Below, in pieces: positions 6,120-43,785 of a DNA stretch of 64,000 nucleotides (positions within the stretch are counted from its first letter, which is position 1; the number at the start of each line of letters is the position of its first letter). The translations under genes were made by a program, and so were the position numbers. The DNA is taken from positions 1 to 64,000 of the forward strand of contig JAIUMA010000001.1 of NCBI GenBank assembly GCA_022565795.1, in the 5' to 3' direction. The notes beneath the pieces were generated by a model. It did no database searches and had not been told where the DNA came from. It saw only the letters and a program-made list of their open reading frames with translations. The DNA is from Balneolia bacterium (GTDB lineage Bacteria > Bacteroidota > Rhodothermia > Balneolales > Cyclonatronaceae).

Positions 6120-7268
6120 ATGAGTAAACGAGATTATTACGAAGTTTTAGGAGTATCCAAAGACGCCAACCCGGATGAGATAAAGCGTGCTTATCGCAAG
6201 AAGGCTATGCAATACCATCCTGATCGAAACGCAGACGACCCTTCCGCTGAAACAAAATTTAAAGAAGCAGCAGAGGCCTTCGATGTACTGAAAGATGACA
6301 ATAAAAGAGCTCGTTACGATCAGTTTGGCCATGCCGGTATGAACGGCGGCGGATTCGGCGGTGGTGCAAACTATCAGGATATCGATTTTGAAGATATCTT
6401 CTCCCGCTTTGGTGACATTTTTGGCGGTGCAGCCGGTGGACAACAACGCAGCAGCAGACGTCGCTCTGCGGGCGTGCCGGGCAACGACATGAAAATGACC
6501 ATCAAACTCACGATGGAAGAAGTGGCTTTCGGTGTTGAGAAAAAGCTGAAGGTTAAAAAGTATTCGAAGTGTGATTCATGTCGCGGAACAGGAGCTGAAA
6601 CCGACGAAGATTTCATGACATGTTCATCCTGTAATGGAACAGGAGAATATCGCCAGGTTTCCCGCACCATGTTCGGCTCATTTGTGAACGTGCAGCCATG
6701 CCCGTCCTGTAACGGTGAAGGGCGCACGATTAAGAGAAAATGTTCTTCCTGCGGAGGCGATGGCCGTACCAGAAATGAAGAAACTATTTCCGTTAAGATT
6801 CCGGCCGGAGTTTCGACGAACAACTACATTACCCTGCGTGGTCAGGGAAATGCGGGCCTTCGTGGCGGTCCGGCTGGCGACCTGATTGTTGTTATTGAAG
6901 AAAAAGAGCATGAATACTTCGAACGTGACGGTGATCATATCTTTTATGATCTGCAAATCAGTATTCCTGATGCTATTCTTGGAACTGAAGTTGAAGTTCC
7001 GACGCTAAAAGGAAAAGCTAAGCTCAGGGTAGAGCCTGGAACTCAGTCCGGCAAACTTCTGCGTATGAAAGAGAAGGGAATTCAGCGACTGAACTCAAGC
7101 CTTAGAGGCGATCAGTTTGTTCGTGTGAACGTTTTTATTCCTAAGAAAATCAGTGATTCCGAGCGTAAACTGGTTGAAGACCTCAGACAGGCCGATCATT
7201 TCGATCCGCTCAAACAGACCGAATCTGAAAACGGGTTTTTTTCCAGGCTGAAAAATATTTTCAGCTAA
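6120..7268 (+). CDS. dnaJ: Chaperone protein DnaJ
   Basis: DnaJ delivers unfolded clients to DnaK and stimulates its ATPase. The 382 residues show the full type I order: J domain with the HPD motif (YHPDRN, about residue 35), a Gly/Phe-rich linker (FGHAGMNGGGFGGG), four zinc-finger repeats (CDSCRGTG, CSSCNGTG, CPSCNGEG, CSSCGGDG), then the substrate-binding C-terminal domains with IPAGVSTNNYITLRGQGNAG and a final helical tail. Length is normal. It follows grpE by 10 bases and is read as the second gene of that operon. Confidence 0.97.
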   Translation: MSKRDYYEVLGVSKDANPDEIKRAYRKKAMQYHPDRNADDPSAETKFKEAAEAFDVLKDDNKRARYDQFGHAGMNGGGFGGGANYQDIDFEDIFSRFGDIFGGAAGGQQRSSRRRSAGVPGNDMKMTIKLTMEEVAFGVEKKLKVKKYSKCDSCRGTGAETDEDFMTCSSCNGTGEYRQVSRTMFGSFVNVQPCPSCNGEGRTIKRKCSSCGGDGRTRNEETISVKIPAGVSTNNYITLRGQGNAGLRGGPAGDLIVVIEEKEHEYFERDGDHIFYDLQISIPDAILGTEVEVPTLKGKAKLRVEPGTQSGKLLRMKEKGIQRLNSSLRGDQFVRVNVFIPKKISDSERKLVEDLRQADHFDPLKQTESENGFFSRLKNIFS

Positions 7269-39299: not shown

Positions 39300-40016
39300 A
39301 TGCCCGCTGAAGACTTATCTGATAAAACTGTAGACAGGCCTTTTATCGATGCCAAAGATAACCGTTTTGTCGTGTCATTTTTTACTGTATTCACAAAGTT
39401 TCTGGCAAAGAGGACCTTCCGGAAAGTCTATTTAAATAACGGTTACGGAAGAAAGGTGAAAAACCGAAGCACGCTCTATTTCGGGAATCATAATGCCTGG
39501 TGGGATGCCCTAACTCCCCTGCTTCTCAATCAGTATGTTTTGAAACAGCACCCGCGGGCGGTTATGGAATGGGAACAGGTTCACCGCTACCCATTTTTCC
39601 GGAGAATCGGTTGCTTTTCGATTGACAGAAAAGATTACCGGTCAGCTCTTAAATCACTGCGATATGGCATTGAATGGCTTAACAATGCTCCGGGACGATC
39701 GCTTTTTCTATATCCCGAGGGCAAGATTACCAATCCTCAGCTCCCCGACTCACAATTTGAAACCGGAATCGGCTGGATGGCTTCACAACTTGAGGAGCAC
39801 GTAGATCTTGTACCCTTTATTCAGCATTCGCATTTGATGCATCATTCAAAGCCTGAGCTCTACCTTCAGCTGGGCTCCCCGGTTGACAGGTCGGGTTTCA
39901 AAGCATCCAGCAAAAAAGATATTACAGCTTCTCTCGAAGCTCAGATCAAAACTCAGCAGCTTCTATTTGTTGAAAAAGCCAGTGCAAAAGAGCATGATAT
40001 TCCCGTTTTGTTTTGA
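39300..40016 (+). CDS. PlsC-like acyltransferase
   Basis: The 238 residues contain the HxxxxD catalytic motif as NHNAWWDALTPL and a second motif FLYPEGKITNPQ, which mark the glycerolphosphate acyltransferase superfamily. The WWD form differs from the house plsC at 30 kb (HQSFLD). Related WWD acyltransferases include carotenoid-glycoside acyltransferases (the CruD type), as I recall. The CrtC and GT2 genes nearby make that role attractive, but it is inference. It starts a run of three forward genes with short gaps. Confidence 0.82.
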   Translation: MPAEDLSDKTVDRPFIDAKDNRFVVSFFTVFTKFLAKRTFRKVYLNNGYGRKVKNRSTLYFGNHNAWWDALTPLLLNQYVLKQHPRAVMEWEQVHRYPFFRRIGCFSIDRKDYRSALKSLRYGIEWLNNAPGRSLFLYPEGKITNPQLPDSQFETGIGWMASQLEEHVDLVPFIQHSHLMHHSKPELYLQLGSPVDRSGFKASSKKDITASLEAQIKTQQLLFVEKASAKEHDIPVLF

Positions 40017-40034
40017 CCATTTATCCAATGAATC

Positions 40035-40700
40035 ATGAGTGATAACAATCATTTAGTTCCGCTGAATTTCACCTATTTATCTCAGGAAGAGATGGTAATC
40101 AACTCAGAGCATTTCTATCGTAAAATGCATGAACGCAGGAGCGTACGACATTTCTCTGATACTCCAATTGATGAGCAAATTGTGCTGAATGCGCTTAAAA
40201 CAGCAGGAACCGCCCCTTCAGGAGCGAATAAGCAGCCATGGCATTTTTGCCTGATCAAGGATGATGACGTTAAAAGGCATATTCGCAGCCTTGTAGAACA
40301 AGAAGAAAAGGAGAACTACGAACGACGCTTTTCGAAAGAAATGAAGGATGATATTGCTTCATTACAAACAGATTTCTCTAAGCCGCATCTAACCGACGCC
40401 CCCTACCTTATAGTTGTATTTAAGGAGAATTTTAGAGTAGTTGATGGAGTGAGAAGAAAAAATTACTATGTGAATGAATCAGTGGGAATAGCTTGCGGTA
40501 TGCTTATTACGGCTTTACATCAGTCGGGGCTGGCAACATTAACACACACTCCGAATCCTATGAAATATCTGAATTCATTTCTTGGAAGACCGGACAATGA
40601 ATCGCCGGTTTTGGTGATGCCGGTCGGGCTTCCCGCTGAGGATGCGCAGGTACCGGACAACAGGCGAAAGCCATTGAACGAAATAGTAACAATCATCTAA
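40035..40700 (+). CDS. Nitroreductase-fold flavoprotein of the iodotyrosine deiodinase type
   Basis: The 221 residues have the FMN-binding opening RRSVRHF (Arg34, Arg35, Arg38) and the APSGANKQPWHF loop of the IYD subfamily. The substrate lid that marks deiodinases is intact: Glu91, Tyr95 and Lys116 have the spacing E-x3-Y-x20-K seen in human IYD, in the order ENYERR...DFSKPHLTDAPYL. LGRPDNESPVLVMPVGLPAED and the final RRKPLNEIV also fit. The reaction would be reductive dehalogenation of halotyrosines. Bacterial IYDs are known, for example from Bacteroidota. The physiological substrate here is not proven. Confidence 0.85.
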   Translation: MSDNNHLVPLNFTYLSQEEMVINSEHFYRKMHERRSVRHFSDTPIDEQIVLNALKTAGTAPSGANKQPWHFCLIKDDDVKRHIRSLVEQEEKENYERRFSKEMKDDIASLQTDFSKPHLTDAPYLIVVFKENFRVVDGVRRKNYYVNESVGIACGMLITALHQSGLATLTHTPNPMKYLNSFLGRPDNESPVLVMPVGLPAEDAQVPDNRRKPLNEIVTII

Positions 40701-40711
40701 TTAACAAAGAT

Positions 40712-41380
40712 ATGGCACAATCAGCGCTGGTTTTAGGCGGCACAGGTCTCATCGGTTCACACTTGCTCAAACATCTTTTGGAATCTGATGCCTACAGCTC
40801 CGTCATTTGTATTGGAAGGCGAAGCACAGGAATAACTCACCCCAAGCTTGTAGAGCACATTTTTGACCTAATAGAGATGGATAGACATGCTGAACTTTTC
40901 AAGGCTGATGTACTTTTCTGCTGTTTGGGTACTACCATAAAAAAAGCGGGCTCGAAAGAACAGTTCAGGCTGGTCGACTACACGCTCCCGCTCAAAGCTG
41001 CGATTCTGATGAAGCAAAACGGATCGAAATCAGCATGTCTGGTGACCTCCATGGGCGCTGATTCTGCTTCCCGGTTTTTCTACCTGCAGGTTAAGGGCGA
41101 TATCGAACGGGCTTTTACTGAGGTCGGATTTGAGCGGACGCTCATTTTCAGACCAGGCGGTCTAATGGGCAAACGAAATGAATTCAGGCTGGGTGAAAAA
41201 CTTGGAATCGGAGCAATGAATCTATTGTCTCCCTTGATGATAGGGCCGTTGCGCAAGAATCGTCCGATCTATGCTGAGCACGTTGCTTACGTGATGTCTC
41301 ATCTGCCCTTTGAGCGCATCAGCGGGGTCCGGGCCTATGAGTCTCATGAGATTCAGTCGCTCTACAACAGCATGAGTTAG
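40712..41380 (+). CDS. NAD(P)-binding protein of the TIP30/HTATIP2 type
   Basis: The 222 residues are an atypical SDR: LVLGGTGLIGSHLLKHLL for dinucleotide binding, VLFCCLGTTIKKAGSKEQF, SMGADSASRFFYLQVKGDIERAF with the Tyr-x3-Lys pair (Tyr and Lys in FYLQVKG), and FRPGGLMGKRNEFR. This matches the HTATIP2/oxidoreductase family rather than sugar epimerases. Its substrate is unknown. It follows the deiodinase-like gene by 11 bases, so they are probably co-transcribed, and is convergent with crtC. Confidence 0.82.
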   Translation: MAQSALVLGGTGLIGSHLLKHLLESDAYSSVICIGRRSTGITHPKLVEHIFDLIEMDRHAELFKADVLFCCLGTTIKKAGSKEQFRLVDYTLPLKAAILMKQNGSKSACLVTSMGADSASRFFYLQVKGDIERAFTEVGFERTLIFRPGGLMGKRNEFRLGEKLGIGAMNLLSPLMIGPLRKNRPIYAEHVAYVMSHLPFERISGVRAYESHEIQSLYNSMS

Positions 41381-41383
41381 GGC

Positions 41384-42478
41384 CTACCAGGTCCAGCGGT
41401 ACAGTCGCGGAGACTTCTGAACCCAGTGCGGACTGTCTGCATAACGATACCTCATATGAACAAGAGGCCAAAACAGGCGGGCGTGAATTCTCGACGGGCG
41501 AATGTATTCGGTGATGCCGCTTCCCTGCTCCAGCTGATCTGTTCCAGGCAGGTGAAGAATAGCATCGCTTCGAAAACGAAAGTAAAACGGCCCGGAATCC
41601 AGAATTCGTGACTGCTGGATCATCACCTTATCCTGTTGTTTATTGCCGAGGTTGATGGTGCGTGCGGCTGTGAGCAGGAACATATTGCTCATAAATGTGC
41701 TGAGGCTTCCCTCATCGAACTCGCTTTGCAGCTCACCCTTTCGGTTTAGCAACCAGGCCTTGTAGTCTGTCGTCTTACCCGTATTCATCAGGTAATAGAC
41801 GAGCGTGTGCTCCGGAAAATGAAATCTTCCCCAATACCAGTCGGAAAACTCATTCTTCATAGGCTCGGCACCAAGGTTGTGGTCGTGATAGCCTGTTCCC
41901 TTCCAGGTGATGAACTTCTCGCCCCTTACTGCAGATTTTAGCGCCATGTCGAAACTGACATCGGCGCGGGGTTGTGTGAGGTTCCATCCGTGACCGCTTT
42001 CCTGAGCACTTTGGTTTCCGAAAAGAGTTTCGGAAACAGTCTCTGATGTGAAAACCATAGTTCCGTTGAGCTCGTCCCCACTTGGCAGAGTTTCATTAAG
42101 CTCAAGGGTGTGCTGCAGCTGATTTCCCGCTCGCCTAAGCGTTAGGATGTTCTTCCCCACTTGTACTTTAATTTCATGATCTGAGATCATGTTAAACTCA
42201 GCCTGTGAAGGAGGATACTCACTCATGCTGTAGAAAACAGGCTCGCCTTTGAAGTAAAGCGAGATGCTTATTGCCGGGTGTTCTTTGGCGCTGGAGATTT
42301 TAGATTCTGAGGCCCAGTTGGTGTTATACTTTGTAGAGAACGGGCACCCATCATAAAAAATAACAACTACATGCCACTCATTTTTTTCATCTGCCGCATC
42401 GAAGTACCACCATTCATAGCTTCCTGATTCCGGTTTTTCGGCAGGTTTATCAAATTTAAAATCGGATGTTATTTTCAT
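41384..42478 (-). CDS. Carotenoid 1,2-hydratase-like protein (CrtC family)
   Basis: The 364 residues match the CrtC lipocalin-like fold: YEWWYFDAADEKNEWHVVVIFYDG at the start, GHGWNLTQPRADVSF and the hallmark GYHDHNLGAEPMKNEFSDWYWGRF, which carries the His-Asp-His of the predicted active site. Family enzymes add water to the end group of acyclic carotenoids, giving a tertiary hydroxyl. A short gap of 3 bases separates its stop from the neighbouring stop, and it diverges from the GT2 gene, which would glycosylate such a hydroxyl. An unrelated lipocalin-like role remains possible. Confidence 0.8.
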   Translation of the reverse strand: MKITSDFKFDKPAEKPESGSYEWWYFDAADEKNEWHVVVIFYDGCPFSTKYNTNWASESKISSAKEHPAISISLYFKGEPVFYSMSEYPPSQAEFNMISDHEIKVQVGKNILTLRRAGNQLQHTLELNETLPSGDELNGTMVFTSETVSETLFGNQSAQESGHGWNLTQPRADVSFDMALKSAVRGEKFITWKGTGYHDHNLGAEPMKNEFSDWYWGRFHFPEHTLVYYLMNTGKTTDYKAWLLNRKGELQSEFDEGSLSTFMSNMFLLTAARTINLGNKQQDKVMIQQSRILDSGPFYFRFRSDAILHLPGTDQLEQGSGITEYIRPSRIHARLFWPLVHMRYRYADSPHWVQKSPRLYRWTW

Positions 42479-42594
42479 AGGCCTTAATTTAGCATTTGTG
42501 AACCAACGATACCAAGCTTACGTTCACAAAAACGATCTCCGGCTACGTGCTTACGTTTCTGAAGAGCGTTCTTTTTTTCACCAATTAATTTTAC

Positions 42595-43785
42595 ATGGTA
42601 CTGCTTGAGAGCCTCCTGCTGGCGGGCTTCCTGTTTTTAGCAGGCATTACATTTGTTTTCTTACGAAACAGGTTTCAATTCAGAGGGGTAGCGGGAGAGG
42701 AAAGAGCTGCGGACACCGACCTTAGCGTTGCTGTTTGTATTCCGGCTCGCAATGAGGAAGCAACTATTCGCATGTGTCTCGATCATGCATTAAGCCAGAA
42801 TTACGCCAATACCCGTGTCTATGTGCTCAACGATCGCTCTACCGACGATACGACCTCCATTCTGGAGCAGTACCGCAAAGTGCACTCAGATAAGCTTGTA
42901 ATTGCGCAGGGTACGGATCGTCCTGAAGGCTGGCTGGGCAAGCCTTATGCCTGCCATCAGCTGAGTAAAATGGTAAAGGAAGACATTATCATTTTTATTG
43001 ATGCCGATACCTGGATGCACCCCGATGTGGTAAATAAAATCGTGGGCTCCTTTAATCGTAACAATATCGACTTTATAACCATCTGGCCGGAACAGAAGCT
43101 GGTGTCATTCTGGGAGAAAACGGTGGTGCCGCTGGTCTACTATGCCCTGCTCGGACTGCTTCCTGCAGCCTATACCGAACGAAAACCCCGCTGGATGCCA
43201 TCATTCTTTCATTCGCGATTCAAGACGCTTTTTGCGGCTGCCTGCGGACAATTCATGGCTTTCCGTTCCGAAACTTACAAACAGATTGACGGCCACACCT
43301 CCGTAAAAAACGAGATTGTGGAAGATGTGATGCTGGCACGTAAAGTTATCGAGCATGGGTTCAGAATGAGAATGTACCACGGAGTTGATTCATTCTTTTG
43401 CCGCATGTACGATTCGGAGGAAAGTATGGAGCAGGGTTTCCGCAAGAATTTTTTGGCTGGCTTCGATTACAATATCCCGCTATTTGTTTTCATGGCTATC
43501 ATGCACTTTCTGGCTTTCATACTTCCGTTTCTGGTTCTCTTGGCGGCAATTGTTTTACCTGTTTCGGATCAAGCAGTCTGGCTTTCTATCTACTCAATTG
43601 GCCTGTTCACCGTTCACAGAATCATCCTTGCTTTTTGGATGAAGTGGGATCTTTCCAAATCATTTCTGCATGTGGTTGGTGTGGGCTGGTTTCAGCGGCT
43701 GGGATTTATTACACTGGCAGATTATCTGAAAGGTCGCGCCGTTCGCTGGAAGGATGATGAAATCAGCCACAAGAAAAAGTCCTGA
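42595..43785 (+). CDS. Family 2 glycosyltransferase, probably carotenoid-related
   Basis: The 396 residues have an N-terminal membrane helix (about 3-22), then a GT-A domain with VAVCIPARNEEATIRMCLDHAL, NDRSTDD, FIDADTWMHPD for the metal-binding DxD and EDVMLARKVIEHG for the catalytic acid, and finally two or three membrane helices from about residue 300. This layout is that of CrtQ/CruC-like carotenoid glycosyltransferases. The divergent neighbour is CrtC-like, and crtB lies in the same window. Hopanoid or other lipid glycosylation is an alternative. Confidence 0.82.
   Translation: MVLLESLLLAGFLFLAGITFVFLRNRFQFRGVAGEERAADTDLSVAVCIPARNEEATIRMCLDHALSQNYANTRVYVLNDRSTDDTTSILEQYRKVHSDKLVIAQGTDRPEGWLGKPYACHQLSKMVKEDIIIFIDADTWMHPDVVNKIVGSFNRNNIDFITIWPEQKLVSFWEKTVVPLVYYALLGLLPAAYTERKPRWMPSFFHSRFKTLFAAACGQFMAFRSETYKQIDGHTSVKNEIVEDVMLARKVIEHGFRMRMYHGVDSFFCRMYDSEESMEQGFRKNFLAGFDYNIPLFVFMAIMHFLAFILPFLVLLAAIVLPVSDQAVWLSIYSIGLFTVHRIILAFWMKWDLSKSFLHVVGVGWFQRLGFITLADYLKGRAVRWKDDEISHKKKS

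Follow-up and report, generated by a model that had tools for sequence, protein, structure and literature searches.

An iodotyrosine deiodinase family flavoprotein, most likely a halotyrosine dehalogenase, in a Balneolia bacterium

The open reading frame at positions 40035-40700 of the DNA analyzed here (a 64,000-nucleotide stretch from a Balneolia bacterium of the order Balneolales, hereafter the window) encodes a protein that Pfam names only "Nitroreductase" (PF00881); no other PF00881 member turned up in the 3.59-Mb genome. The question is whether this protein is an ordinary nitroreductase or, as the first-pass annotation had proposed from its motifs, a halotyrosine deiodinase serving a marine life or the degradation of halotyrosines derived from algae. 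Sequence, predicted fold, active-site residues and phylogeny all point to the iodotyrosine deiodinase (IYD) family, and we hold with high confidence that the protein most likely dehalogenates halotyrosines and so feeds tyrosine catabolism; the enzymatic part of the earlier proposal is thereby well supported, whereas its marine and algal ecology was not. The parts of the reading frame are given below, where invariance refers to an 85-sequence alignment of the window protein, 81 relatives, and the Haliscomenobacter hydrossis (hhIYD), human and mouse IYDs.

40035..40700, plus strand: predicted IYD of the FMN nitroreductase superfamily, 221 aa, ATG start
40134..40148, plus strand: residues 34-38, RRSVR, FMN phosphate-binding motif, aligned to human R100-R104
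40212..40241, plus strand: residues 60-69, APSGANKQPW, FMN/substrate site loop, with A64 corresponding to human A130
40305..40319, plus strand: E91 to Y95, first segment of the lid at the active site, both end residues invariant (85/85)
40380..40382, plus strand: K116 codon, second part of the active-site lid, invariant in 85/85
40548..40550, plus strand: T172 codon, equivalent of human T239, invariant in 85/85

A search of PDB sequences returned the H. hydrossis IYD as the best match (5KO7, 5KO8, 5KRD; E = 3.7e-64, ~48% identity over the full length), followed by human IYD (4TTB, 7.7e-53) and mouse IYD (3GB5); ordinary nitroreductases matched at 9e-15 or weaker. Judged by sequence, the match to IYDs is far above chance expectation. 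The Haliscomenobacter enzyme, with which a comparison had been suggested, is thus the closest solved relative, and it has the same lid triad of Glu, Tyr and Lys. The claimed E-x3-Y-x20-K spacing of human IYD was confirmed: E91, Y95 and K116 align with human E157, Y161 and K182 in a gap-free stretch, each shifted by 66, and RRSVRHF and APSGANKQPW both occur in the protein. Sequence alignments further showed that Ala64, Thr172 and Arg211 are kept as the counterparts of human Ala130, Thr239 and Arg279. In human IYD, T239 forms a hydrogen bond to FMN N5.

The FMN phosphate motif, as aligned to human IYD, comprises R34, R35, S36 and R38; R34, R35 and R38 are kept both in the 85-sequence alignment and in a 44-sequence alignment with Deinococcus, Streptomyces and Paraburkholderia members. 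E91, Y95, K116 and T172 are invariant in the smaller alignment too, and P61, G63, A64, P68 and W69 are invariant in the larger one; since the relatives were collected by similarity to the query, this invariance reflects constraint within the family and is no blind test. The triad and T172 were absent from one BluB, two SagB-like proteins and one nitroreductase-domain protein of a congener. On these alignments, the E/Y/K triad sets IYD apart from the other nitroreductase-superfamily proteins tested, and its earlier use as a mark of halotyrosine deiodinases against nitroreductases held for all of them.

An AlphaFold2 model of the monomer, built from a 40-sequence alignment with the plasmid-collection rows left out, had a pLDDT of 93.2 and a pTM of 0.88, with the lid blocks (residues 91-120) at ~89-91. 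Foldseek comparison with the PDB placed the iodotyrosine-bound, lid-ordered structure 5ko8_B at the top (216 columns, 1.0 A, TM 0.95/0.96), followed by ligand-bound human and mouse IYD. Ligand-free IYD structures ranked lower (184-202 versus 215-222 ordered residues), and BluB and other nitroreductases ranked much lower; the best IYD matches reached E ~1e-28, and non-IYD nitroreductases 6e-14 or weaker. Because the model is closest to ligand-bound 5ko8 and the ligand-free forms come later, the model, which contains no ligand, appears to take the closed-lid conformation.

A maximum-likelihood tree of 96 rows gathered every IYD-type sequence into one group (96/91), against outgroups that were few and long-branched. 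The window protein paired with its congener G002 (100/88), then with G004 and G005. The larger Bacteroidota assemblage to which they belong also took in the mammalian IYDs and hhIYD, though its deep forks were weak. By this sequence tree, the protein belongs inside the IYD clade, apart from other nitroreductases. Counting matches at E <= 1e-20, 46 of 60 near relatives have IYD, as do 89 of 297 genomes sampled across the phylum, in which the family is common; a few large plasmids also carry a match. Two further sequences were noted. The IYD of a MAG labelled Chloroflexi (L030, JAJZSS010000271.1) branches within the IYDs of Balneolales family f4, a possible mis-binned contig or transfer, and one copy (G055:C12:246651-247259) contains three in-frame stops (two TAG, one TAA) and is an apparent pseudogene.

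By analogy with characterised IYDs, from which the dehalogenation chemistry is carried over, the protein would act as a soluble, FMN-dependent homodimer. A halotyrosine in zwitterionic form (3-iodo-, 3-bromo- or 3-chloro-tyrosine) would bind over the flavin, where Glu91, Tyr95, Lys116 and FMN would hold its ammonium, carboxylate and phenolate groups while the lid orders and closes. Reduced FMN would then give electrons singly, with Thr172 stabilising the semiquinone, so that the halide is expelled and tyrosine is left; in this heterotroph the tyrosine might enter protein or be burned via 4-hydroxyphenylpyruvate and homogentisate. Computation establishes the family, the residues and the fold; the dimeric state, substrate, reductase and role in the host are inferences. 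Debromination of bromotyrosine by mammalian IYD has also been reported (PMC4708624).

Same-genus MAGs carry the titles Balneolia bacterium T1Sed10_100, Balneolia bacterium T3Sed10_333R1 and Balneolales bacterium Super_Day4_Bin.10. Names with "Sed10" are similar to ones used in work on hypersaline soda lakes, and soda-lake sediment appears to be one habitat of the genus; a soda-lake Balneolaeota isolate has been described that grows on proteins and peptides (PMC6243061). These titles leave the proposed marine life of the host unsupported. The same holds for algae as the source of halotyrosines, as nothing at the locus points to them and no halotyrosine-specific neighbourhood is conserved.

This setting bears on the strongest alternative, namely that an IYD-fold protein acts on some other phenolic amino acid or dipeptide (nitrotyrosine or tyrosine-derived metabolites) and that dehalogenation is a side activity. 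Along with the apparent soda-lake habitat, it is favoured by the wide occurrence of bacterial and animal IYDs where a supply of free halotyrosine is doubtful, and by the C. elegans orthologue SUP-18, whose substrate is unidentified (PMC3930498). However, the residues that read the halotyrosine zwitterion and phenolate are all invariant, mammals included, and the lid in the model fits the iodotyrosine-bound form; we regard this alternative as unlikely. A general nitroreductase or BluB-like enzyme with a chance E-x3-Y-x20-K pattern, as the Pfam name and the rank of BluB as top NCBIfam model might suggest, has next to no likelihood and was rejected, given a score of 73.3 bits against a cut-off of 150 for the BluB model (TIGR02476), the missing triad and Thr172 in bona fide relatives of that kind and the structure matches; the FbiB and RutE models likewise scored far below their cut-offs.

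For the preferred reading, halotyrosine dehalogenation, the fate of the tyrosine product is of interest. The host genome encodes HPPD (467 bits, cut-off 277) and fumarylacetoacetase (629 bits, cut-off 375), and a weak, sub-threshold homogentisate dioxygenase (HGD) match adjoins HPPD; with these genes, tyrosine released by IYD could be catabolised in the host. IYD and HPPD were associated within the host's class (45/11 vs 7/11 genomes, Fisher p = 0.002, kinship ignored), and we found no association in the rest of the sampled phylum (17/16 vs 97/93 genomes, p = 1.0). Being limited to the class, this co-occurrence was rejected as proof of a role. Salvage driven by tyrosine auxotrophy was considered as a motive and is unsupported for this host, in which both chorismate synthase and a match to prephenate dehydrogenase are present; such auxotrophy has been reported for 'Ca. 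Cyclonatronum proteinivorum', isolated from a soda lake (PMC6243061).

Two genes flank IYD closely:

39300..40016, plus strand: acyltransferase (PlsC-like), 18 bp upstream of IYD
40712..41380, plus strand: TIP30/PA4017-like NAD(P)-binding protein, 11 bp downstream of IYD

The acyltransferase and IYD probably lie in the same transcription unit. The acyltransferase is absent beside IYD in two congeners; in the nearest congener, G002, the two are separated by a further pair of genes (448 and 504 aa) whose products look like the potassium-uptake proteins TrkA and TrkH, which marks this junction as a variable spot. The downstream adjacency with the TIP30-like gene was found in 4 of 4 genus members with a readable junction (window, G002, G004, G005); in G003 the contig end falls inside IYD. 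A natural IYD-minus locus was seen in G001 (L151, G001:C72, ~6618-6672), where acyltransferase, TIP30-like, CrtC-like, GT2 and XerC genes follow the window's order without IYD; the first two have tblastn matches that are ~54 bp apart. Because other genus members have the gene, loss is the simplest reading, and since G001 is without the gene altogether, IYD is dispensable. Further downstream in the window, positions 41384-43785 hold a CrtC/Diels-Alderase-N-like protein (minus strand) and an HpnB/CruG-like glycosyltransferase (plus strand), kept in two congeners; located near the acyltransferase, they look like genes for tailoring carotenoids or hopanoids.

No conserved halotyrosine operon was found around IYD among the relatives' loci, and the genes beside it in the window do not form a halotyrosine or tyrosine operon; like the dispensability seen in G001 and the missing IYD-HPPD association beyond the class, this counts against the preferred reading. 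Outside the genus IYD has neighbours with no relation to the window's, and Balneolaceae-like family f4 has IYD in another conserved setting; of the conservation of neighbours proposed as a check, the TIP30-like adjacency was seen within the genus. In one class relative (L160, G248:C128, 45-5578), whose gene names were read from sequences and not by family search, IYD and HPPD are 2.5 kb apart, separated by an Lrp/AsnC-like regulator, and a probable HGD (HmgA-like) follows beyond HPPD. An Lrp/AsnC regulator also adjoins IYD on a Streptomyces plasmid, and both settings hint at a link to amino-acid metabolism. It is a long shot that the TIP30-like NAD(P)-binding protein feeds reducing equivalents to IYD; if it did, the two would be a working pair in the genus.

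The gene joins a known bacterial family that already has crystal structures and is not surprising in itself. It adds one more confident IYD to a family mostly annotated as "nitroreductase", and the survey shows how frequent IYD is among Balneolales and other Bacteroidota. Since we know of no physiological role or electron donor for bacterial IYDs, the host and its IYD-less congener form a species pair that could be used to find either.

Among known systems, BluB (5,6-dimethylbenzimidazole synthase) shares the nitroreductase-superfamily fold without the lid triad. The deposited IYD 6PZ0/6Q1B/6Q1L/6TYK, presumably that of Thermotoga, shares fold and family name but is far more distant (87 bits, ~30% identity) and shorter. 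Human and mouse IYD/DEHAL1 (4TTB, 4TTC, 3GB5, 3GFD, 3GH8) have the catalytic domain, triad and FMN contacts in common with the window protein at ~40% identity; the latter is without their N-terminal membrane anchor region and has a THTPSPM-type loop where they have TTTPLNC. Closest is the H. hydrossis IYD, likewise bacterial and of equal length, which shares the lid triad and the FMN site and whose closed-lid form the predicted fold resembles. The window protein has Asn174 and Tyr178 after the THTP motif, where Ser and Phe are usual; otherwise the alignment revealed no striking difference between the two proteins.
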